Positions 12,783 through 61,790 of a stretch of DNA of 64,000 bases are shown here, one piece after another. Within the stretch, counting starts at the first letter, position 1. Each line of letters opens with the position of its first letter. Origin of the DNA: Vibrio chagasii. GTDB lineage: Bacteria; Pseudomonadota; Gammaproteobacteria; Enterobacterales; Vibrionaceae. The notes under the pieces were generated by a model. That model made no database searches. It worked only from the letters and a program-made list of their open reading frames with translations, and was not told the DNA's origin. Both the position numbers and the translations under genes were made by a program. The stretch covers positions 558,001-622,000 of the forward strand of contig NZ_AP025466.1 of the NCBI RefSeq assembly GCF_024347355.1. Direction: 5' to 3'.

Positions 12783-12823
12783 AAATACAGGTCACTTCCT
12801 ATTAGCGATTAGAGACTATTAAA

Positions 12824-12855
12824 AAGCCCTTACTCACAAAAGCGAGTAAGGGCTT
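12824..12855. terminator. bidirectional terminator between manB and aroG
   Basis: 12-bp perfect stem AAGCCCTTACTC / GAGTAAGGGCTT with an 8-base loop, flanked by A-runs on the left, which read as a T-tract for the minus-strand aroG transcript. Confidence 0.88.
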
Positions 12856-12897
12856 CAATTGTCTAAGTCGTTCTAGAGACTAATTAAAGTCACTAAT

Positions 12898-13950
12898 TTA
12901 CTTGTTACGGCGAGCTTCAACTGCATCTGCCAGTTGACGAAGTACTGTTTCAGTATCTTCCCAACCAATACAAGCGTCAGTAATTGACTGGCCATATGTT
13001 GGAGCTTTGCCGTCAACCAAATCCTGGCGGCCTTCAACTAGATGAGATTCGATCATCACACCAAAGATAGCTTTGTCACCACCAGAGATCTGTGCGCTCA
13101 CGTCATCCGATACGTTCAGTTGGCGCTTAAATTGCTTAGAGCTGTTTGCGTGGCTAAAGTCGATCATTACTTTCTGTGGTAGGCCTGAGGCTTCAAGCTC
13201 TTGCTTGATCTTACCAACGTGCTCTGCGCTGTAGTTTGGCTCTTTACCACCACGTAGGATGATATGACAATCAGGGTTACCAGCCGTTTCAACGATAGCT
13301 GAATGGCCATACTTAGTTACAGACAAGAAGTGGTGAGAAGCACTTGCAGAGCGGATTGCGTCTGTTGCGATCTTGATGTTGCCATCAGTACCATTCTTGA
13401 AACCAACAGGGCATGAAAGACCAGAAGCTAGCTCACGGTGAACTTGAGATTCCGTAGTACGTGCGCCAATTGCACCCCAGCTAATTAAGTCTGCTACGTA
13501 TTGAGGCGTGATCATGTCTAGGAATTCACTTGCCGTCGGCATACCCATGTCTGTTAGATCAAGCAATAGCTTACGTCCAAGACGTAGACCATCGTTTAGC
13601 TTGAACGTGTCATCCATGTACGGGTCATTGATCAGGCCTTTCCAGCCAACGGTAGTACGTGGTTTTTCAAAGTAAACACGCATTACGATTTCTAGCTTAT
13701 CGCCTAGTTCGTCACGCAGAACTTTCAAACGCTTACCGTATTCAAGAGCGGCTTCTGGATCATGAATAGAACATGGACCAACGATAACCAATAGGCGGTC
13801 ATCTTTGTCTTCTAGAATGTTGTGAATTGCTTTACGGCTTTCAAAGGTTGTAGAAGAAGCAACTTCTGTCGCTGGAAACTTTTCTAAAACAGCAACAGGG
13901 GGTAATAACTCTTTTACTTTGTTAATTCTTACATCATCAGTCTGGAACAT
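12898..13950 (-). CDS. aroG: 3-deoxy-7-phosphoheptulonate (DAHP) synthase
   Basis: 350 residues, the length of the E. coli type I AroG/F/H enzymes. It condenses PEP and erythrose-4-P in the first step of aromatic amino acid synthesis. Recognisable blocks are VIVGPCSIHD-like (VGPCSIHDPEAALEY), KPRTTVGWKG, GARTTESQVHREL and the metal residues in DFSHANSSKQ. The sequence is closest to the Phe-sensitive AroG form in my reading. The assignment of the isoform is less certain than the family. Two TyrR-type boxes lie 150-190 bases upstream. It stands alone, with its own terminator shared with manB. Confidence 0.93.
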   Translation of the reverse strand: MFQTDDVRINKVKELLPPVAVLEKFPATEVASSTTFESRKAIHNILEDKDDRLLVIVGPCSIHDPEAALEYGKRLKVLRDELGDKLEIVMRVYFEKPRTTVGWKGLINDPYMDDTFKLNDGLRLGRKLLLDLTDMGMPTASEFLDMITPQYVADLISWGAIGARTTESQVHRELASGLSCPVGFKNGTDGNIKIATDAIRSASASHHFLSVTKYGHSAIVETAGNPDCHIILRGGKEPNYSAEHVGKIKQELEASGLPQKVMIDFSHANSSKQFKRQLNVSDDVSAQISGGDKAIFGVMIESHLVEGRQDLVDGKAPTYGQSITDACIGWEDTETVLRQLADAVEARRNK

Positions 13951-15933: not shown

Positions 15934-16026
15934 AACGCACTTCTGGCAAACTATTTGAAAGAATAGGACGCAAAGCCACCGCTCTGTCGACAATTATTCT
16001 GTCTATGATAGCGGAGCTGCCACTTA
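15934..16026 (+). ncRNA. cyclic-di-GMP-I (GEMM-I) riboswitch
   Basis: The conserved GEMM-I core is readable: AACGCAC, then GGCAAAC, a GAAA tetraloop on a CTATT / AATAG stem, then GGACGCAAAGCC and a CCGCT / AGCGG second stem ending in GAGCTGCCA. This RNA senses c-di-GMP and is known upstream of gbpA in Vibrio cholerae (Vc1). Here it lies 70 bases before the gbpA start. A CACTTAA / TTAAGTG hairpin at 16021-16040 overlaps its 3' edge and is the likely expression platform. Confidence 0.92.
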
Positions 16027-17673: not shown

Positions 17674-18612
17674 TTAAAGGAGGTAATGGTCTGCCAGCAA
17701 AGCAACAAACAAAATCATGAGATGATAAATAGAAAACTTGAATGTCTTCATCGCCATGTTAGGCTCATCACGATACTTCAATACCCAGGCATGATAAACA
17801 AACCCACCGTTGAGCACCAAAGACGCGCTCAGGTATATCCAACTGCTCATTCCAACCAATACTGGCAGCACACACACGATGCTCAGCAATAGTGTATACA
17901 GCAGAATTGAAGTCTTGGTGTAAGTTATCCCATGTGTCACAGGCAACATCGGGATATCTACCTTGGCATATTCGTCACGACGATGAATCGCAAGCGCCCA
18001 AAAGTGAGGAGGTGTCCAGATGAAGATGATCATCACCAGTAGCCATGCGTTGGAGTGCAACTCGTTAGTCACTGCCGTCCAACCCAATAAAGGTGGCATT
18101 GCCCCTGCGATCCCTGCAATGACAATGTTCTGTGGCGTCGCTCGTTTTAAATACATGGTATAGATAACCGCATAACCTAATAAGCTCGCAAAGGTTAGCC
18201 AAGCCGTAAGCGGGTTAACTAACAAGGCTAAAGTCACAAAGCCAAGTAAACCGATACCTGCTGCAAAGGCGAATACTCGTACACTGCTGAGCTCACCCGA
18301 TGGTAAAGGACGACGATTAGTACGAGACATTTGCCCGTCGATCTTCTTGTCGATCAAGTGATTAAATGCAGCGGCTGAACCCGCCATCAACCCTATCCCT
18401 ACCATGCCAAATAATGCTTGCTGTAATGGCAATCCATTAGGCACCGCTAAACACATGCCGACTAATGCTGTTAACAACATCAAAGCAACCACTTTAGGCT
18501 TAGTCAGTGTTAAATAGACCTTCCAAGCTGCTTTGTTTTGAGCAGCAACTTCATGACTTGAAGCGGTATCTTGAACCACAATTTGATGCTGTGTTGAAGT
18601 TCTACTGACCAT
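17674..18612 (-). CDS. ctaB: protoheme IX farnesyltransferase (heme O synthase)
   Basis: 312 residues from the ATG at 18612. UbiA-family membrane enzyme with about nine hydrophobic segments that adds a farnesyl group to heme B. The two Asp-rich motifs are present: [15 protein letters not shown] and, later, [13 protein letters not shown]. The start at 18612 is set by AAGGAGG five bases upstream. A longer frame to 18654 lacks such support. It overlaps the ctaA stop by 11 bases, so ctaA and ctaB are coupled. It is the last gene of the cytochrome oxidase island and makes heme O for CtaA to oxidise to heme A. Confidence 0.93.
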
Positions 18613-19657
18613 GATTACCTCCTTGTAATACACTGTTCTTTGCCAAGCGCTCACTTGGTTTTCGTTGCCACACTACAAAGTTTGTCGCAACCAGACTGAC
18701 AAGCAGCATCGCCGCAACTAAGTTATGAAGCACTGCCACTGAAATCGGTAGATGGAACCACACGTTACTGATCCCTAAACTGACTTGCACGGCTAATACC
18801 AATGCCACAATGACACCCAGTTTTTGGTGCGCTGTTTGACCAAGCTTCCACAACTGATACACGACCATTAGCACCGTTATCGTTGCCACAATAGCGCCAA
18901 ACCTATGCATGACATGTATGGTGAGCCTTGCGGGATACTCGAGCACACCAAACTCATAGTTATCATGCCCATGCTGTGCAAAGTCGAACGCATTCTTAAA
19001 ATCTAGGTAGCTTATCCAATTACCTTCACAGATAGGCAGTTGAGTACATACCAGCGCGGCATAATTTGAAGACGTCCAACCGCCAAGTAAGATCTGTCCA
19101 ATTACAACCATCAGGCCAAGTAACGCAGCAAACTTGCTCGTCGCCGAGTATGTCGTTTCACTGAACCGAGTCTGGAAATTAGAGAGGCGACAATACAGTA
19201 GGCAGAGCAGAGACAGCAGAGTGAACCCTCCCATCAAGTGCGCCATCACCACAACAGGCATCAGTTTGAGAGTCACTGTCCACATCCCTAACAAAGCTTG
19301 AAAGATCACCGTTGCTGCAATAAGTAACGGTAGTCCAGCAGAAGTGATGTTCTTCTTAATACACCAAGCAACTACAACAAAGATGAGAAGCCCTAATGAA
19401 CCAGCAAAGTAGCGATGTATCATCTCTATCCAAGCTTTATTAGCCTCAAGAGCACGTTCAGGGAATTGGAGGTTAGCTTGGTTCACTGCTTGTGCATCAG
19501 ACGGTACTGTGAGCTTTCCATAACACCCAGGCCAGTCAGGGCAACCAAGCCCAGCATCCGATAATCGGGTATAAGCACCGAGCACAATCACTGTCAGCGT
19601 CAGTAAGATAGTCACTCGCATCACGAGCATGAGTAAATCAGGGGCTTTGTTCTGCAT
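18602..19657 (-). CDS. ctaA: heme A synthase (COX15/CtaA family)
   Basis: 351 residues, eight hydrophobic segments in two four-helix halves. Conserved motifs: [21 protein letters not shown] at the first helix end and paired His in EMIHRYFAG and MHRFGAI. It oxidises the C8 methyl of heme O to a formyl group, making heme A for the oxidase. In an operon with the oxidase subunit genes on the same strand, and coupled to ctaB by overlap. Confidence 0.93.
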
Positions 19658-19731
19658 CGTTTATCTCCCTATACTTATTCCCTTTCGCTGCCAGAGTTCA
19701 GTCACCACAGTCAAACCGATTCGCTTATCAA

Positions 19732-20340
19732 CTATCCAACACGTGATAGCTTTAGAAGCTTTCTGAGGTCATGAACCATGCCTTTGGACTGCCCGACTAA
19801 CTGCGACGGTTCTGAGACACTTTTGTATTCCATAACGAGTTGCCCAAGGGGATCAATGATAACAATCGAAGCTGGTGCAAACTTAGTGCTCAACTGCTCC
19901 CCACCAGACAGAAATGACAAATCAGGTTTGTTAAATGCTCCTGGTAATGCATCCCCTTCAGAAACAAAAACCACAGCTGTCACTCGTTCTTTGTTCTTCC
20001 CTAGCGCTAAGTAGCTTTGGTTCAAGTAATGGAGTTGTTGTTCGCATAAGCTATCGCAGTCCGTTGGCGCAATGTAACCCACCAACCACCCTTCTCCTTC
20101 CATCGGCGTCGTCAGCCCAAAATCTTGTAGAGTCACTCTTGGCTCAACTAACTCCCCACTGTTTGTCACACCAGATGTGTACCAATTCTGCTCTAATACA
20201 GTTTTAGCAATAATGGCAGGTAAGGCGAAGACCAAGATCAACCCGATGAAGATAAGTCGACCACGTGAGCGGCGCTGTTTAAACGCAGCAAGATTAGCAT
20301 CGGTACTTTCCTTTTTAGTTTGTGTTTGAGACTTATCCAT
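19732..20340 (-). CDS. membrane-anchored thioredoxin-fold protein of the cytochrome oxidase cluster
   Basis: 202 residues. A basic N-terminus, one membrane anchor (about residues 30-48) and a periplasmic thioredoxin/SCO-like fold. The GYIAPTDCDSLCEQQL segment has two Cys spaced CxxxC as in SCO copper chaperones, where a third ligand is a distant His. Such a His is not obvious here, so copper binding is unproved. Genes of this type sit between SURF1 and ctaA in related clusters. A likely role is in assembling the CuA site, inferred from position and fold only. Confidence 0.72.
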   Translation of the reverse strand: MDKSQTQTKKESTDANLAAFKQRRSRGRLIFIGLILVFALPAIIAKTVLEQNWYTSGVTNSGELVEPRVTLQDFGLTTPMEGEGWLVGYIAPTDCDSLCEQQLHYLNQSYLALGKNKERVTAVVFVSEGDALPGAFNKPDLSFLSGGEQLSTKFAPASIVIIDPLGQLVMEYKSVSEPSQLVGQSKGMVHDLRKLLKLSRVG

Positions 20341-20399
20341 TTTGATTCCCTGTATTAGTCGCTGCCGATCACTAACCGTGTTTATGTCGTTACAAGCAT

Positions 20400-21209
20400 T
20401 TACTTCTTATTCATGTGACTATGTTTCTTCAAGTATCTGAACCCAATCAACAACATCAGCGAAAGCAATACTGCAGCCATCACAAACCATTGAAATGAGT
20501 AACCGAAGTGCTTCTCAGACTTCATCGCAGTCGGGCGCCATAGCATTTCATAAGGCCATGAATCTAAGCTCTGAGGTTGAAAAACGAACGGTAACACCTC
20601 TTGCCCTGTGTATTGTGATAACGCTTCTATGTTGATATTTTGAATCCTTTTCGGCGTCGTGTTTTCTAGCCCAAGTTCCTGACTTAACGGATTCACCGAA
20701 CGTGTGTACAAGCGACCAGACATCTCGATTGGTAGCGTGATCTTTCCTATTCCTGGTAGCTCTCTTCTGTCATTACTTGCTGCAACGAATCCAAGATCGA
20801 TCAAAAGCTGTTTTCTTCCATCTTGAGTTTGAACCTCGCCCAGCATGTAAATCACATACCCCACCGTTCCTTGATTGATTTGATTGTCCAGCAAGAGAAT
20901 TAAACCACTCGATTTCACTAATTCGACGTCAGCGTTCAAGCCATTTAAGGTCGAAGGGGGCACCGACTGCTGAGTTCCAACGCTTGCCTCTCGCCATTCA
21001 GTGAGCACTGCATCTAGTGGTTTAGAAGGTTGCACAGATCTCTGCGATAGCTGCTGCTCATAACGTAGTTTCTCGTTACCTCTGTCTAACTGCCATAAAC
21101 CCAACTTGATTAAAGTGCCGACTGAAACCAAAGTTAAAGCAACCGCAAACCAAAAACCTTTACTGCGGAACGTTCGTTCATCATGATTCAAACGGTTTGG
21201 AGTTATCAC
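20400..21209 (-). CDS. SURF1 family cytochrome oxidase assembly protein
   Basis: 269 residues from a GTG at 21209. Two membrane segments, one near the N terminus (KGFWFAVALTLVSVGTLIKLG) and one near the C terminus (WFVMAAVLLSLMLLIGF), bracket a large periplasmic domain, the SURF1 layout. It helps insert heme A into subunit I. The frame is open to an ATG at 21299, but that would overlap the opposite-strand DUF2909 gene. The GTG has AGGTGA seven bases upstream and fits the family length. The two start codons are then one base apart on opposite strands. The exact start is the uncertain part. Confidence 0.85.
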   Translation of the reverse strand: MITPNRLNHDERTFRSKGFWFAVALTLVSVGTLIKLGLWQLDRGNEKLRYEQQLSQRSVQPSKPLDAVLTEWREASVGTQQSVPPSTLNGLNADVELVKSSGLILLLDNQINQGTVGYVIYMLGEVQTQDGRKQLLIDLGFVAASNDRRELPGIGKITLPIEMSGRLYTRSVNPLSQELGLENTTPKRIQNINIEALSQYTGQEVLPFVFQPQSLDSWPYEMLWRPTAMKSEKHFGYSFQWFVMAAVLLSLMLLIGFRYLKKHSHMNKK

Positions 21210-21210
21210 T

Positions 21211-21441
21211 ATGGCGTCACCTACCTTTATCCTGTTATTCAAAGTTGTGTTAGTTGCCCTGCTATTTTTCATCGCATTCAACTTAATGAAAGGGCTCATT
21301 CAAATCGCTTCTAGCAAACACAATGGCAAAAAGCTGAGTCACTTCTTGGGGCGTCGAGTCATGTGGTCAGCCGTTGCTGTGTTACTGCTATTGCTTGCTT
21401 TAGGGTCAGGAGTGATAACTCCCAACCCTCGTCCTTATTAA
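21211..21441 (+). CDS. DUF2909 family small membrane protein
   Basis: 76 residues with two transmembrane helices (about 8-28 and 48-66), the DUF2909 twin-helix pattern. The gene lies on the plus strand inside a minus-strand oxidase operon, between ctaE and SURF1. GGAG is eight bases before the ATG. The same family is found at this place in cytochrome oxidase clusters of other gammaproteobacteria. Its role is unknown, probably linked to oxidase assembly. If transcribed, its message is antisense to the ctaE-SURF1 intergenic stretch. Confidence 0.82.
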   Translation: MASPTFILLFKVVLVALLFFIAFNLMKGLIQIASSKHNGKKLSHFLGRRVMWSAVAVLLLLLALGSGVITPNPRPY

Positions 21442-21463
21442 GCCCTTTAGCTCTGTCGCTTCG

Positions 21464-22348
21464 CTAAAGTACGTATACAAACACGAATAATCCTAACCAC
21501 ACCACATCAACAAAGTGCCAATACCAACTGCCGGCTTGGAATGCAAAATGGTCTTTGGGTGTAAAATGATCTTTGGCAACCCTAGCCAACAGCACGATTA
21601 AAAAGATCGTCCCTAAGCAGACATGTAAACCATGGAAACCCGTCAGTAAGAAGAAGGTGTTGCCATAGATTCCCGATTGAAGAGTAAGGCCCATATCTTG
21701 ATAAGCATGGATATACTCTTCAACTTGGAAAAATAGGAAGAACCCAGCCAGAACGATGGTGATCTCTAACCAAACGATTAATGCCATGCGCTTGTTTTGT
21801 TCGAGGCTTAGATGGGCCATATGCAGCGTGATGGACGAAAGCAATAGGATAATGGTGTTTTTGAGTGGAATTCCTTGCCATGGCATAGCTTGTGTTGTTA
21901 CGCCATCCGGTGTCGTAGTCAGCGGCCACATTGATTGGAACATTGGCCACAATACTTCATGAGTCATTTCATTGTTGCCCGCCCCGCCAATCCATGGGAC
22001 AGAAATCATACGAGCGTAGAACAGCGCGCCAAAGAAAGCACCGAAGAACATGATTTCAGAAAAGATGAACCAACTCATGCCTTGCCTGAAAGAGCGGGAT
22101 ATTTGCTCAGAATAGAGGCCGCTCAAGGATTCTGTAATCACGTTGCTAAACCAACCCGCAAGCATGTAAAGCAACACCGCAAACCCGACGAACAACACAG
22201 CCTTACCGAACACACCGCCAGCGGCATCAGTGCCCATGTTTTGCACGGTTAACCCTGCTCCAACCGCAACAAGAAATAGCGCAACGGCACCGACTAATGG
22301 CCAATGGCTTTGATGTGGAACGAAATAAACTTCCTTTTTAGAACTCAT
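21464..22348 (-). CDS. ctaE: cytochrome c oxidase subunit III
   Basis: 294 residues with seven predicted membrane helices, the normal subunit III size. Motifs: the FFGALFYAR helix, the HMAHLSLEQ helix and the C-terminal GSWYWHFVDVVWLGLFV. The subunit supports proton uptake and stability of the heme-copper oxidase. It lies between the Cox11 gene and SURF1 and is convergent with the opposite-strand DUF2909 gene (22 bases). Confidence 0.95.
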   Translation of the reverse strand: MSSKKEVYFVPHQSHWPLVGAVALFLVAVGAGLTVQNMGTDAAGGVFGKAVLFVGFAVLLYMLAGWFSNVITESLSGLYSEQISRSFRQGMSWFIFSEIMFFGAFFGALFYARMISVPWIGGAGNNEMTHEVLWPMFQSMWPLTTTPDGVTTQAMPWQGIPLKNTIILLLSSITLHMAHLSLEQNKRMALIVWLEITIVLAGFFLFFQVEEYIHAYQDMGLTLQSGIYGNTFFLLTGFHGLHVCLGTIFLIVLLARVAKDHFTPKDHFAFQAGSWYWHFVDVVWLGLFVFVYVL

Positions 22349-22377
22349 CGCTCAACTCCTTTTGTTGATTCTGGTTC

Positions 22378-23001
22378 CTAGTTACTCGCGATTACATTAG
22401 GCTCGGCACTACTTGATTCCCCGACCACCTCATTCGTAATGTTAAATAGCGTATAAGAGAGCGTCAGTGTGTGAATCGATTCTGGAATATCTGGCTCTAT
22501 GTAAAATATCAAACCCATTTCAGCGCTTTTATGCCCCTCTAATGGCTGCTGGTTAAAGCAGAAGCATTCCATCTTATTAAAGTAAGTCGCCCCCATCCCT
22601 GGAGATACTGAAGGCACAGCCTGCCCCACTAGAGAGTTTCCTGATAAATTTTTGGCGATGTAATTCGTTTGAATTACCTCACCAGGGTGAACCTCTAACA
22701 CACGATCTTCAGGAACGAACTGCCAGGGCATATCAGGTTTGATGTGCGACATAAACTCCACACGAACTGTGCGAGAATAATCTGGCTGCATCCCACGTGG
22801 CTGTACCGCAGACACGGTATTAGTTTTGCCGTTGATTCCCAAAGCCTCGCACATCACATCGTAGAGTGGCACCAAAGCAAAACCGAAGCCAAACATCGCT
22901 ACCACACTCAATACCAAGTAACCCGTTAGCTTTTTAGTTGATCGCTTCTTGGTTGACCGCTTTGGTTGGTTTTTATCTAGTTCGCTTTGCTTATCACTCA
23001 T
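22378..23001 (-). CDS. ctaG: cytochrome c oxidase assembly protein CtaG/Cox11
   Basis: 207 residues. One N-terminal membrane anchor (about residues 25-45) and a periplasmic copper-binding domain with the family motif ECFCFNQQPLEG, whose paired Cys bind Cu(I), and the DYSRTVRVEF segment. Cox11 delivers copper to the CuB site of subunit I. It is located between the subunit I and subunit III genes, 11 bases from ctaD. Confidence 0.95.
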   Translation of the reverse strand: MSDKQSELDKNQPKRSTKKRSTKKLTGYLVLSVVAMFGFGFALVPLYDVMCEALGINGKTNTVSAVQPRGMQPDYSRTVRVEFMSHIKPDMPWQFVPEDRVLEVHPGEVIQTNYIAKNLSGNSLVGQAVPSVSPGMGATYFNKMECFCFNQQPLEGHKSAEMGLIFYIEPDIPESIHTLTLSYTLFNITNEVVGESSSAEPNVIASN

Positions 23002-23012
23002 AGCCCATCTCC

Positions 23013-24674
23013 CTAATCGACTTTAGGCGGATGAGTAAAAGTATGATGAGGCGCAGGGCTTGGTACCGTCCACTCTAACCCTTCAGCACGTTCCCATGGC
23101 TTGCTTGGTGCTAGCTCGCCGCCTTTCACACACTTGATAACTAGCCACAAAAAGATGAGTTGCGATAAACCAAAGGCGAAGCCCCCTATCGACACCACTT
23201 GGTTAACGTCAGCGAACTGGATAGCGTAGTCTGGAATACGACGTGGCATCCCCGCTAAACCTAGGAAATGCATAGGGAAGAAAAGAACATTCACTGAGAT
23301 TACTGACGTCCAGAAATGCCATAGACTGAGCTTGTGGTCGTACATATGACCAGTCCATTTAGGTAACCAATAATAAGCGGCGGCCATTATCGAGAACACG
23401 GCACCAGTCACCAGAACGTAGTGGAAGTGAGCCACTACAAAATAGGTGTCGTGGTATTGGAAATCTGCAGGAACAATGGCGAGCATCAATCCAGACAAGC
23501 CACCTATCGTGAACAGAACGATAAAGGCAATGGTGAACAGCATTGGGGTTTCGAAAGTCAATGCGCCTCGCCACATGGTTGCGACCCAGTTAAAGACTTT
23601 CACGCCTGTCGGCACAGCAATCAACATGGTGCAATACATGAAGAACAGCTCTGCAAAGACGGGCATCCCCGTGGTGAACATATGGTGTGCCCAAACTAAG
23701 AAGGACAAGATTGCGATACTACAGGTCGCGTACACCATTGAGTGATAACCGAACAAACGCTTGCCACTAAATGCAGGGATAATTGCTGAAACAATACCAA
23801 AGGATGGCAAAATCATGATGTAAACTTCAGGGTGCCCAAAGAACCAAAATATGTGCTGGAACATGACGGGGTCACCGCCACCGGCCGCATCGAAGAAGCT
23901 CGTCCCAAAGTATTTGTCGGTCAACACCATGGTCACGGCCCCTGCGAGAACTGGCATTACGGCTATCAGCAAGAAAGCGGTAATTAACCAAGTCCAAACA
24001 AACATTGGCAATTTAAACCAAGTCATACCCGGAGCTCTCATGTTCACGATAGTCACGATAACGTTGATCGCGCCCATGATTGAGCTAATACCCATGATGT
24101 GAACAGAGAATACAAACAAAGCTGTGCTATCTGGGCCATACGTCGTTGAGAGCGGTGCGTAGAATGTCCAACCAAAGCTAGGACCGCCCCCTTCAGTAAA
24201 CAAAGATCCAATCAAGATTAGGAAGGCGAAAGGTAGAATCCAGAAACTGAGGTTGTTCATTCGAGGTAACGCCATATCTGGAGCGCCGATCATCATAGGG
24301 ATCATCCAGTTGGCGAGCCCTGTGAATGCAGGCATTACCGCGCCAAATACCATGATCAAGCCATGGACTGTGGTCATCTGGTTGAAGAAATCAGGCTCAA
24401 CAAGCTGCAGACCCGGTTGGAATAGCTCCGCACGGATCACCATCGCCATCGCACCGCCAGTTAGGAACATGGCGAAACTGAACCACAGATATAGCGTACC
24501 TATGTCTTTATGATTGGTTGAATACAGCCAACGCGCCCATCCTTTAGGAGCGGCATGGGAATCGTGATCGTCCGAAGGTAAGTCATGGCTGTCTAAGGTA
24601 CCATCTAAAGTATGACTTAGAGCCTGGTCTTCTGCAGGCGCCGATTTCACCGGCTTTTCGATTGGTGAACTCAT
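23013..24674 (-). CDS. ctaD: cytochrome c oxidase subunit I
   Basis: 553 residues, twelve membrane helices. Heme and copper ligands are visible: TTVHGLIM (low-spin heme), GHPEVYIMILPSFG (CuB His and cross-linked Tyr), WAHHMF (CuB) and VVAHFHYVL (both hemes). The helix with the GHPEVY motif shows a type A heme-copper oxidase. The N terminus has an extra hydrophilic stretch of about 40 residues before the first helix. Its ATG overlaps the ctaC stop by four bases (ATGA). It catalyses O2 reduction coupled to proton pumping. Confidence 0.97.
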   Translation of the reverse strand: MSSPIEKPVKSAPAEDQALSHTLDGTLDSHDLPSDDHDSHAAPKGWARWLYSTNHKDIGTLYLWFSFAMFLTGGAMAMVIRAELFQPGLQLVEPDFFNQMTTVHGLIMVFGAVMPAFTGLANWMIPMMIGAPDMALPRMNNLSFWILPFAFLILIGSLFTEGGGPSFGWTFYAPLSTTYGPDSTALFVFSVHIMGISSIMGAINVIVTIVNMRAPGMTWFKLPMFVWTWLITAFLLIAVMPVLAGAVTMVLTDKYFGTSFFDAAGGGDPVMFQHIFWFFGHPEVYIMILPSFGIVSAIIPAFSGKRLFGYHSMVYATCSIAILSFLVWAHHMFTTGMPVFAELFFMYCTMLIAVPTGVKVFNWVATMWRGALTFETPMLFTIAFIVLFTIGGLSGLMLAIVPADFQYHDTYFVVAHFHYVLVTGAVFSIMAAAYYWLPKWTGHMYDHKLSLWHFWTSVISVNVLFFPMHFLGLAGMPRRIPDYAIQFADVNQVVSIGGFAFGLSQLIFLWLVIKCVKGGELAPSKPWERAEGLEWTVPSPAPHHTFTHPPKVD

Positions 24675-25873
24675 AGCTGCTCCTTAGCATCACTTTGTGC
24701 TTCATCCGCAGAGCCTTCCGCTCCACCCGACTGTTTAACCTTATAGGCATTAACATCTGAAGCTTGAACCACATCGCCAGTGTCATTCCCCCAAGCATTT
24801 CGTTGGTAGGTCACGACTGCTGCAATCTCTTTCTCAGTCAACTGATTGTCGAAGGCTTGCATTGCCGTGCCTCCTCGACCGTAAACAATAGTGTCGATAT
24901 GAACATCTACATCTCCAAGAGCAACTGGGCTACCTTTGATAGCAGGAAACGCTCCGGGTATACCTTCACCGTTTGCTTGATGACATACGGCACATCGAGT
25001 TTTGTATACCTCTTCACCTATGGTGTTCAACTCTTCCAAAGAAAGTGACGCGTCTAACGCATCTTGAGCCGCTTGTTGTGCGGCAATCGTTAGCTCTTTC
25101 TGTTCTGCTAACCATGCGTCAAACTCATCTTCTGCCATGGCATGCACTACTATCGGCATGAAGCCGTGAGCACGACCACAAAGCTCTGCACACTGTCCTC
25201 GGTAAACGCCTGGTTCATCAATTTTTGTCCAAGCTTCGTTAATGAAACCCGGAATGGTATCTTTTTTAACGGCAAAGGCCGGAACCCACCAAGAGTGAAT
25301 CACATCATCTGAAGTCATCAAGAAGCGAACTTTTCGATCGACAGGAAGGACGAGTGGTTTATCAACCTCTAGCAAGTAATGAGCGCCTTTCACTTCAATG
25401 CCTTCGATTTCTTTATCACTGGTTGCCAGCAAGCTGAAGAATTCAACATCTTCGCCAAAATAACTGTAATGCCATTTCCATTGTGAGCCAGTAATTTTAA
25501 CTGTGAGTTCAGATTGGGAGGTGTCTTCCATCGCTATCAAGGTTTTAGTAGCGGGAATCGCCATTGCGATAAGAATAATGATGGGGATAATGGTCCAGAG
25601 AATTTCGACTTTGGTACTTTCATGAAAGTGAGCGGCCACCGCGCCCTTCGACTTTCGGTGCCTTAGAATCGAATAAAACATCACCCCGAACACAACGAAG
25701 GCGATTGCACAGCAGATGTAGAAGATCAACATGTGAAGTTCATACACTTGACCACTGATCTCTGTTACACCTTGTGTCATGTTATATTCGCTACTCGCAT
25801 TCACCCACGGCGAAATCGACAGCACAACAAAACTGTTCAAAAGCCACGCTAGCCTAACCAGTAATCTTTTCAA
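24671..25873 (-). CDS. ctaC: cytochrome c oxidase subunit II with fused cytochrome c domain (caa3 type)
   Basis: 400 residues. Signal peptide, two helices (about 45-65 and 90-110), a CuA cupredoxin domain ending in RGQCAELCGRAHGFM, and a C-terminal cytochrome c domain with CAVCH (about residue 305). The fused c domain defines a caa3-type oxidase. The start is a TTG at 25871-25873 supported by AGGAG seven bases upstream; no ATG is available before the signal peptide. It is the first gene of the oxidase operon, so the promoter lies in 25874-26250. This oxidase is in addition to the cbb3 type that vibrios normally carry. Confidence 0.93.
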   Translation of the reverse strand: MKRLLVRLAWLLNSFVVLSISPWVNASSEYNMTQGVTEISGQVYELHMLIFYICCAIAFVVFGVMFYSILRHRKSKGAVAAHFHESTKVEILWTIIPIIILIAMAIPATKTLIAMEDTSQSELTVKITGSQWKWHYSYFGEDVEFFSLLATSDKEIEGIEVKGAHYLLEVDKPLVLPVDRKVRFLMTSDDVIHSWWVPAFAVKKDTIPGFINEAWTKIDEPGVYRGQCAELCGRAHGFMPIVVHAMAEDEFDAWLAEQKELTIAAQQAAQDALDASLSLEELNTIGEEVYKTRCAVCHQANGEGIPGAFPAIKGSPVALGDVDVHIDTIVYGRGGTAMQAFDNQLTEKEIAAVVTYQRNAWGNDTGDVVQASDVNAYKVKQSGGAEGSADEAQSDAKEQL

Positions 25874-28918: not shown

Positions 28919-29551
28919 TTAACTCGCAACCCACTCTATCTCTATCAATGTTGTCTCACCACACTTAAGGCGACCTAGGAAAATATCACCTTGATGTACT
29001 TCTCCGACACCTTTAGGGGTGCCCGTCATCACTACATCGCCATCTAGCAAAGTCGTGTAAGAAGAGAGCTCTTCGAGGATTGTTTGTGGGGAATATAGCA
29101 TTTGCTCAACGTGTCCTTTCTGAACACGAACACAGTTAATAAACAGCTCTAGATTTAAGTCTGCGAGATCCAAGTTTGTTATTGGAACAAAGCGGCTAAG
29201 AACGGCAGAACCATCAAATGCTTTAGCACGCTCCCAAGGCAAGCCTTTCGCTTTCAAGCTGCTTTGCAGCTCGCGCTTAGTCAGATCTAACCCTAAACCT
29301 ACTGCTGAATATTGACCGTTTTCAACGATGAAACAAATTTCTGCTTCATAGTGCAGGGCTTCCTGATGAAAAGAAGAGAGGGAAGAAGTTACGCTAGTAC
29401 AGGGTTTATTGAACACCACCATAACGTCTGGAATCGCGTTGTTAAGTTCTTCAATATGATCGACATAGTTACGCCCAACACACAGTACTTTCGTCGGTGT
29501 CGCTGTTTGTTTCGAATTCATTAACTTTTCCTGATCTACAACACTGCTCAT
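28919..29551 (-). CDS. fumarylacetoacetate hydrolase family protein
   Basis: 210 residues, FAH-fold hydrolase or decarboxylase of the YcgM/FahD group. Motifs: CVGRNYVDHIEEL at the start, HYEAEICFIV with the metal Glu pair, GLDLTKRELQ and DVVMTGTPKGVG at the end. Members act on acylpyruvates or oxaloacetate. The substrate here is not determined. An alternative ATG at 29521 (MNSKQT) has AGGA seven bases before, and the 29551 start also has AGGGA, so the N terminus is uncertain by ten residues. A terminator-like structure of another transcript lies about 165 bases upstream. Confidence 0.88.
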   Translation of the reverse strand: MSSVVDQEKLMNSKQTATPTKVLCVGRNYVDHIEELNNAIPDVMVVFNKPCTSVTSSLSSFHQEALHYEAEICFIVENGQYSAVGLGLDLTKRELQSSLKAKGLPWERAKAFDGSAVLSRFVPITNLDLADLNLELFINCVRVQKGHVEQMLYSPQTILEELSSYTTLLDGDVVMTGTPKGVGEVHQGDIFLGRLKCGETTLIEIEWVAS

Positions 29552-29715
29552 AGTTTATCCCTGAACTATTTTGGAATGCGGAGTTTACCTCATCCCAAAG
29601 ATAGAATCTTCGACAAGCTGGCGACTGATCTCTAAATTCTGATCTTTAGCTCAATTCGCTCATTGGGAAATTTTCATAAGGAAATCGGGGCATTCTGAGG
29701 TGGTCATTCAAAACG

Positions 29716-29753
29716 AAAAAAGCCCTCTCCAACCAAAAGGTTTGAGAGGGCTT
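29716..29753 (-). terminator. orphan intrinsic terminator, minus strand
   Basis: 10-bp perfect stem AAGCCCTCTC / GAGAGGGCTT with a 14-base loop. On the minus strand it runs into six T. No annotated gene ends here, so it must end a short RNA or act as a leader attenuator for the FAH gene. Confidence 0.8.
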
Positions 29754-29911
29754 AGCATGGTGTCTAGGACAGTATCCTAAAAGGTAAACCTAAGGAGTAA
29801 ACACTATGCTAAATCAGTCTGAGACTTATAGGTAATAGCGGGCATCAGTAGCCACCAGTAGTCTGCGTTACCGAAATCAAAAGTATCTCAGTAGTTCACC
29901 GTTTCTTCCAT
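29716..29911 (-). ncRNA. candidate structured small RNA or attenuator leader
   Basis: Upstream of the orphan terminator (minus strand) an 11-of-12-bp long-range stem joins 29801-29812 and 29752-29763. It encloses two perfect small hairpins, AGGT/ACCT (29782-29791) and TAGGA/TCCTA (29765-29779), giving a three-way junction. The multiloop contains CTCCTTA, complementary to a Shine-Dalgarno sequence. Further upstream lies a 36-codon frame (29911-29804) interrupted by one UGA at codon 8, and within it a 13-residue frame beginning at 29845. The 5' end and promoter are not determined. No known family was recognised. Confidence 0.45.
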
Positions 29912-30126
29912 ATTAGTCAGTACCTAGTTAGCGAACTCCTCGTAGATGACAACGTTCATGAATGAGTTTGGCGTATAAGAAAAGTTGTAACAATATTCTA
30001 TTGAGATGGACAAAAATCAATTACAAAGAAGAGATTCAAAGCTGGAAGTAAAATACCCCCTACTTTCAGTACCAGTTAAAAGTACATGAGAAATGAGTAT
30101 AGGGGGTGATTTCTCGATGGCTCTCC
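29912..30126. other. intergenic, probably 5' control region of the RNA locus and 3' region of the TelA-like gene
   Basis: No gene seen. The minus-strand promoter for the 29716-29911 RNA should lie about 29930-30030; -35/-10 pairs there are weak (TTGTTA, TAGAAT), and none stands out. GGGGGTATTTTAC and its neighbours next to the TelA-like stop form no clear terminator except a CCCCCTA / TAGGGGG inverted repeat spanning about 30055-30106. Confidence 0.4.
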
Positions 30127-30633
30127 TTACAAGGTTTGCTCAAGCGCTTGTTTAAGTTCTGCTTCTGCTCGCTCAATCACTTGTTGAGCCTGCTCGCGTT
30201 GCGCTCTGCCTTCCTTGACTCGTAATAGCGTATTGTTCAACGTTTCTATCGTCAGTTGATTCACGGTCTCTAGAGAATCAAGGTCGAGAATGCCACGCTG
30301 GTCATTTTCTGCTATTTGCTCTTCTAACGCCTTCAGTTTCTCTGCGTTTTGCACATATTGCTTATTGGTATAATCCTTCACCGCGCGCGTTACCTTTAAC
30401 GCTTTCTCTTTTTCGTAATTGGAAATCGCAATCAAGAATTGGCGCTTCCACAATGGGAAAGTGTTGTGCACGATATCTTGAATGTCTTCCATCAGCATTT
30501 TATTGCCTTCTTGAGACAATCGAATCTGAGGTGCGGTTTGGATAGCAGCAAGGCGAGTGAGCTCAAGGTTATGTACTCGCTTTTCTAAACGCGCAACGGC
30601 TTGGGTGGCATCACGGTATTTCTGAGCATCCAT
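30127..30633 (-). CDS. TelA-like protein, C-terminal part only
   Basis: 168 residues that correspond to the C-terminal half of the toxic-anion-resistance (TelA) family. Recognisable stretches are HNLELTRLAAIQTAPQIRL, DIVHNTFPLWKRQFLIAI and RGILDLDSLETVNQ. Full family members are about 380 residues, so the N-terminal half is missing. The in-frame codon shortly before the ATG is a TGA and the next 230 bases contain no matching half. It may be a remnant or a small stand-alone paralogue. Mostly helical and cytosolic. The start lacks a strong ribosome site. A 75-bp tandem repeat lies 30-105 bases upstream. Confidence 0.7.
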   Translation of the reverse strand: MDAQKYRDATQAVARLEKRVHNLELTRLAAIQTAPQIRLSQEGNKMLMEDIQDIVHNTFPLWKRQFLIAISNYEKEKALKVTRAVKDYTNKQYVQNAEKLKALEEQIAENDQRGILDLDSLETVNQLTIETLNNTLLRVKEGRAQREQAQQVIERAEAELKQALEQTL

Positions 30634-30663: not shown

Positions 30664-30738
30664 AATTAACAATTAACAATTAACAATTAACAATTAACAC
30701 ATTAACACATTAACACATTAACACATTAACACATTAAC
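30664..30738. repeat. composite microsatellite: five 7-mers then five 8-mers
   Basis: Five perfect copies of AATTAAC (30664-30698) are followed without a break by five perfect copies of ACATTAAC (30699-30738). All ten units share ATTAAC. The array lies between the TelA-like gene and the upstream lipoprotein stop, i.e. in the TelA-like promoter region. Such arrays change length by strand slippage. Confidence 0.95.
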
Positions 30739-30864
30739 AATATTCAATGTAAATATATCTCCCCCCTTCTTAATATAAAAGAATAAATAAGCAAGATAAC
30801 TACATTGAAAGCCCGGAATCATAATTTGAAGCCAGGCCAACTGTATTACTCAATAACTAATTAA

Positions 30865-61679: not shown

Positions 61680-61790
61680 GTGACCCTTCTTAAGCCGAGG
61701 GTCACCTAGCCAACTGACGTTGTTAGTGAACCTATTCTTGTTCACAAAATATATAAGCCAATCGCGATTATTGCGGTTGGCTATTTTTTT
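61680..61790 (+). ncRNA. qrr: Qrr quorum-sensing regulatory RNA
   Basis: About 111 nt. A 5' stem-loop (GACCCT...AGGGTC), then the conserved Qrr core TCACCTAGCCAACTGACG and TTGTTAGTGAA that pairs with target mRNAs such as luxR-type messages, and a terminator of AGCCAATCGC / GCGGTTGGCT ending in seven T (61784-61790). It acts with Hfq in the Vibrio quorum circuit downstream of LuxPQ-LuxU-LuxO. Which of the several Qrr copies this is cannot be said from the core alone. Confidence 0.95.

Follow-up and report, generated by a model that had tools for sequence, protein, structure and literature searches.

A conserved structured RNA in Vibrio chagasii as the probable 3'UTR and terminator of a porin gene replaced in this strain

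The stretch of Vibrio chagasii DNA analysed here (64,000 nucleotides, called the window below) carries on its minus strand a structured RNA element which, to judge from its place in related genomes, is the 3'UTR and terminator of a general porin gene and not an orphan gene. The reading we favour, at about an even chance, is that the element is the stranded tail of a porin gene that has been replaced in this strain, a tail that in relatives would be cut from the porin mRNA into a base-pairing RNA and that persists here as a relic. What points this way in the sequences is the position of the element after a porin in relatives, the loss of the porin here, the degree to which the RNA is conserved, which is strong, and the failure to find a copy outside the genus. 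The initial annotation described an orphan RNA. That description is replaced by one of a porin 3'UTR, the porin being present in 39 of 40 relatives with a strong copy, and the apparent orphan can be explained as what remains of a porin gene after its deletion.

The structured minus-strand RNA with its own terminator is real; the exact fold of its junction is unproven. The 105 nucleotides at 29716-29820 (-) fold with -40.2 kcal/mol, compared with -22.6 ± 3.2 kcal/mol for shuffled sequences (z -5.6), and none of 200 dinucleotide shuffles was as good. For the full interval reported initially (29716-29911) the folding z is -4.5; its part at 29829-29911 is mostly decayed porin coding sequence and lies outside the RNA. 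The intrinsic terminator at 29716-29751 (-) consists of a stem at 29722-29751 (12 pairs with one internal mismatch and a 4-nucleotide loop) and a U-tract at 29716-29721. It is absent from the list produced by a simple terminator scan of the window, and its stem carries that internal mismatch. In relatives the same structure is the terminator of the porin mRNA. The terminator was seen correctly at the outset, and the statement that it ends no gene needs amending: the gene is lost, and its stop codon (TAA) remains at 29826-29828 (-). Between stop codon and stem is a short lead, 29813-29825 (-), with an invariant ATT at element columns 12-14; a cleavage site may lie in this lead.

The conserved junction RNA occupies 29752-29812 (-). 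Its outer stem pairs 29801-29812 with 29752-29763 over 12 positions with one A.C mismatch, and encloses a 3-bp hairpin (29782-29791) and a perfect 5-bp hairpin (29765-29779), just as the initial description of an 11-of-12-bp stem around two small hairpins had it. The junction block CATAGTGTTTACTCC is invariant in 41 sequences. CTCCTTA, an anti-Shine-Dalgarno-like motif, lies at 29791-29797 (-). No Rfam family reaches the gathering threshold on 29716-29911, in agreement with the early remark that the RNA matches no known family; in a permissive Rfam search of the element all matches were far below threshold, the best being PyrR with 24.6 of 54 bits. Elsewhere in the window, matches at gathering score are a Qrr sRNA at 61681-61790 (+) and a c-di-GMP-I riboswitch at 15935-16024 (+).

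The three-way junction with CTCCTTA exposed, proposed at the outset, has the motif in place but is not the minimum-energy fold. One GGA (columns 53-55) is contested between the UCC of CTCCTTA and the UCC of the 29765-29779 hairpin, and may pair with CUCC instead of closing that hairpin. Mean pairing probabilities over the 41 sequences are 0.50 for the masked CUCC and 0.34 for the 5-bp hairpin, and the partition function prefers the masked form in 32 of the 41. The pairings are kept in other Vibrio: across 39 distinct sequences 94.0% of alignment cells pair with the three-way junction and 94.1% with the masked alternative. The three stems were to be looked for by covariance, and two-sided changes were found at 4 pairs with either fold, all of them in the terminator, where 466 of 466 cells (100%) are paired, and none in the junction. 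Covariation cannot decide the junction fold, since the junction hardly varies and the two-sided changes are confined to the terminator. A switch between two states is conceivable within a clade-specific porin 3'UTR RNA: the invariant GGA would hide an anti-Shine-Dalgarno seed by pairing with the upstream UCC and leave it free by pairing with the downstream one. Such an RNA would have outlived its parent gene in two genomes and be on the way to becoming an sRNA gene in its own right. All three triplets are invariant in the 41 sequences and the pairing probabilities are nearly equal, which fits such a switch and is not proof of it; we regard this combined proposal as improbable.

Conservation of the element exceeds neutral expectation, as for a 3'UTR-derived sRNA. 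Mean pairwise identity in the 41 sequences is 87% for the whole element and 93% for the junction part, against 71% for the spacer to the next gene, which encodes an FAH-family hydrolase, and 48% for the fourfold sites of that FAH gene (40 sequences). By column, in the 39 distinct sequences, conservation is 96% in unpaired and 95% in paired junction positions, 93% in the terminator stem, 74% in the terminator loop and 81% in the lead. Unpaired junction columns are thus conserved as well as paired ones, which points to a sequence-specific use.

The parent gene can be recognised in relatives. A BLAST search of 61 genomes with 29700-29980 gave matches in 9, every one in the genus Vibrio, and there the matched block runs from the final codons and the stop codon of a gene through the element into the terminator. 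In V. chagasii (LC2-408) the gene preceding the element encodes a 356-residue porin. It is identified as such by weak but consistent PDB similarity to OmpF, PhoE, OmpK35 and OmpC; no Pfam family passed on the V. chagasii porin, and its match to the PhoE model is far under the cut-off. All 9 relatives share the gene order HSP70-like chaperone, porin, FAH, LysE, phosphomutase, and the element sits in the gap that separates porin from FAH. A porin lies directly upstream in 39 of the 40 genomes with a strong copy, so that the element is encoded between an mRNA stop codon and a terminator, as a 3'UTR-derived sRNA would be; the exceptions are the window, with gene relics only, and Vibrio sp. HI00D65 (G189), with no porin there. 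The last porin codon is 3 bases from the element in 31 genomes, 2 in 3 and 18 in 5. The porin match is free of stops in 38 of 39. The remaining one (L051, which is G128) has an in-frame stop, possibly a second, independent case of gene decay with the element kept.

Even where the porins diverge the element is still recognised; for example, nine porins are only 58-62% identical to that of V. chagasii. Porin proteins average 80% identity in 39 sequences, and porin fourfold sites 69% against 48% in FAH. In the last porin codons the synonymous choice is fixed (positions 389-393 at 1.00), and constraint on the element may reach into the end of the coding sequence. High conservation is seen in the porin 5'UTR too, where the 39-genome alignment shows a long inverted repeat, AGGTAACAAC ... 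GAGGTTGTTA (in L012, about 140 bases before 3962).

The element appears restricted to a clade, with no copy found outside the genus in the sampled genomes. A covariance model built from 10 sequences found one match each in 41 of 227 Vibrio genomes, 40 of them at 89-137 bits and one at 29 bits; the last (G195) has none of the neighbour genes and is omitted from the 40. FAH is downstream of the element in 40 of 40 strong-copy genomes and LysE is next in 39, the L051 contig ending first. In an order-wide sample of 247 genomes from 87 genera there were 4 model matches, all in Vibrio. An exact-pattern scan of contigs gave 11 stretches, 10 from Vibrio (including V. chagasii, V. lentus, V. splendidus, V. 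crassostreae and V. fortis) and one from Vibrionales bacterium SWAT-3. Since each species is represented by a single genome in these collections, and Infernal was run with its stricter filters in both model searches, weak copies could be missed. The literature search turned up no description of the element among the results listed. A weak model match in the window at 12818-12901 (-), with 28.8 bits, is probably similarity to the terminator only.

In the window the porin has been displaced. Alignment with V. chagasii runs at 98% through the chaperone gene to its last codons (to 32022) and resumes at 94% from 29854 down. The place of the porin is taken by a 284-residue ORF without a Pfam match, a 168-residue ORF (30127-30633) containing only the second half of TelA, and degenerate pieces of the porin itself. 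Beside the stop codon these relics include the decayed last porin codons at 29829-29854 (-), one base shorter than those of relatives, and a degenerate porin-interior fragment at 29863-29976 (-) with 69-72% identity to the porin DNA of 5 of the 9 relatives; at this threshold the other 4, V. chagasii among them, gave no match. In HI00D65 a TelA operon replaces the porin, as in the window. That operon (L075 7605-14246) encodes TelA (352 aa), a PLD-like protein (234 aa) and a DUF3686/AAA ATPase (1620 aa), and is longer than that of the window, where about 9 kb of it is missing between 30630 and 30632. Near the deletion junction is a tandem repeat of ATTAACAC, in about 10 copies (30665-30739). HI00D65 has no other porin copy at E 1e-30, and among the 41 sequences it and the window strain are the two that have kept the tail without the porin.

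Expression of the element in these porin-less strains is doubtful. Downstream of the truncated TelA gene a stem-loop with a U-rich tail (30055-30107 (-), z -2.5) is probably the terminator of that gene, and a scan for one promoter type found no sigma-70-like site on the minus strand of the window from the element to 30750; with this stem-loop and no such site, transcription of the element in the window is questionable. Because the porin promoter region is gone, the element is probably little expressed in this strain, a relic with intact structure. Over 112 positions it shows one difference from the V. chagasii element and one from the HI00D65 element. This similarity is no sign of selection after porin loss, since the flanks are nearly as close.

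In relatives, the favoured reading would have the tail cut from the porin mRNA and accumulate as a stable RNA of about 100 nucleotides, whose invariant CAUAGUGUUUACUCC block would pair with the ribosome-binding sites of other mRNAs and so couple porin expression to them. Of the initial proposal of a trans-acting sRNA, the base-pairing RNA remains plausible and the free-standing gene is disfavoured, 39 of 40 copies following a porin. A U run of at least six ends 14 of the 41 sequences, the window having six U; a U-tail with interruptions is ill suited to classical Hfq binding. RNase E would be the usual enzyme for the cut, though its motif lends no support here. The consensus, RN|WUU as given in the accessible part of PMC7398697, is found where it would be expected in 21 of 41 sequences, among them the window, and occurs in 486 of 984 22-nucleotide spacer stretches, which is the background rate, and the invariant ATT before the stem was accordingly dropped as support for an RNase E site. 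In V. chagasii a sigma-70-like site was found upstream of the porin gene and none inside its end.

Searches for a partner, covering the porin's own 5'UTR, exact seeds and seeds with mismatches, gave no conserved target and at most weak leads. Autoregulation of the porin was rejected: pairing with its own 5'UTR scored z -1.6 to +1.8 in 39 genomes, and GAGTAAACAC, complementary to the element, is in the 5'UTR of 2 of the 9 relatives (L019, L020) and absent in the other 7. The exact seed AGGAGTAAACAC occurs at 20 places in 12 genomes, 10 of them the element itself, compared with 1 place for a backwards control; in the flanks examined, none of the other 10 places (8 genomes) precedes an ORF of more than 66 aa. 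When 16 bases were searched with two mismatches allowed, those 12 genomes yielded 41 places (12 being the element), and the backwards control yielded 31. The 16-mer AGGAGCAAACACAATG, a near-complement of the invariant block, is found in 6 of the 12 genomes, and the three copies read (L109, L113, L122) are the start region of one same gene, presumably batD. The window also holds a cytochrome c oxidase cluster at 18602-25873 (-) with COX2, COX1, CtaG, COX3, SURF1 and CtaA. Four start sites of this cluster are among the five strongest element pairings of 41 genes, perhaps reflecting only strong Shine-Dalgarno sequences; at ctaA the pairing is -13.5 to -18.1 kcal/mol in 8 of the 10 genomes matched and is not tightly kept.

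The main rival is a purely cis-acting 3'UTR, whose fold would shield the porin mRNA from 3' exonucleases or aid termination without any trans activity. It is clearly less probable than the favoured reading but a serious contender. The element sits directly behind the porin in nearly all genomes, the codon constraint of the porin is as strong as for an abundant mRNA, and the background-level cleavage motif and empty target searches suit it as well. Yet a protective stem needs pairing and not sequence, and here unpaired junction bases are conserved equally; moreover, 11 genomes that lack the element carry a porin at this locus whose 3'UTR is unrelated. It is unlikely that the element is a free-standing sRNA gene acting in trans from a promoter of its own, even though its own terminator, its strong fold and its outlasting of the porin in two genomes would agree with such a gene, and the fixed synonymous choice in the last porin codons leaves room for an internal promoter. 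Against it are the 39 of 40 copies found directly after a porin and, for the one promoter type scanned, the lack of a sigma-70-like site both in the window up to 30750 (-) and at the V. chagasii porin end. A DNA site or a plus-strand RNA is very unlikely. The plus strand of the 105 nucleotides does fold well (z -6.9), and the cells of its outer stem are paired somewhat more often than on the minus strand (95.7% against 89.2%), a point we leave unexplained. The complement of the invariant block, at 29792-29835 (+), has the form of Shine-Dalgarno, spacer and ATG (AAGGAG-N8-ATG) and lies antisense to the end of the porin gene; all 41 sequences keep GGAGTAAACACTATG unchanged, and in 27 of them it starts a 9-codon frame. 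In the others that frame is broken or different (a stop after 3 codons in 8, a different 8-codon sequence in 5, a longer one in 1), and the porin end to which it is antisense constrains the frame. The terminator speaks for the minus strand, pairing in 100% of cells there against 92.7% on the plus strand and having its U-tract on the minus strand only.

Least probable of all is a cis-acting attenuator or leader of FAH (28919-29551 (-)), the next gene downstream, which we regard as a shared neighbour and not as part of the element. The initial annotation had suggested an attenuator for the FAH gene 165 bases on; the distance is right, falling within the 144-292 bases seen in 41 sequences, and the attenuation is not borne out. 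FAH does follow in all 41 sequences, and the element is partially complementary to the FAH start region. This pairing is generic, however: shuffles equal it in 1-52% of trials, depending on the genome, and FAH ranks only 12th of 41 window genes (41 of 53 ORFs used) for start-site pairing. FAH also occurs where the element is missing. Among 27 of the 28 Vibrio genomes without a match in the 61-genome BLAST, 23 have an FAH match (59-91% identical). In 11 of these 23 a porin of 46-58% identity lies upstream in the same orientation, mostly with a short stretch and a terminator-like hairpin as 3'UTR, unrelated to the element; two more have a match of 22-25% identity in the opposite direction. The covariance model found nothing significant at the 23 loci (best E 0.54). 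A clean loss is seen in one genome (G025, L126), where porin and element are both gone and the chaperone is followed by FAH about 108 bases on, with the FAH-proximal sequence kept.

Porin 3'UTR RNAs of this sort can be set beside known systems. MicX of V. cholerae belongs to another locus. In the available part of PMC9438474 it is described as an sRNA at a 3' end with a promoter inside an ORF; the element is likewise a 3'UTR RNA in Vibrio, and differs in that a simple scan found no internal promoter. OppZ, CarZ and FarS are V. cholerae sRNAs derived from 3'UTRs and released by RNase E, according to the accessible sections of PMC7398697 and PMC9438474. As far as those sections describe them, the element resembles them in lying between an mRNA stop codon and an intrinsic terminator and in having a conserved stretch. 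It differs from them in having a porin as parent, in its restriction to a clade, in an RNase E motif not above background and in the loss of the parent gene here. MalH of Escherichia coli is, according to PMC9438474 and PMC8081044, a 3'-end RNA of malEFG that represses ompC and ompA. On that account MalH, like the RNA proposed here, is a 3'-end RNA of about 100 nucleotides tied to outer-membrane nutrient uptake; it comes from an ABC-transporter operon and acts on porins, whereas the parent of the element is itself a porin.

The element can be described as a clade-restricted, highly conserved porin 3'UTR RNA that falls below every Rfam threshold. This makes the group of V. splendidus, V. chagasii and V. 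crassostreae a candidate setting for a porin that regulates other genes via the tail of its own mRNA. Whether an RNA of this kind can survive the loss of its gene could be followed in the two genomes without the porin, which are a natural experiment on that question. Were the two-state switch true, this locus would be a case of a regulatory RNA that has survived the gene it came from.
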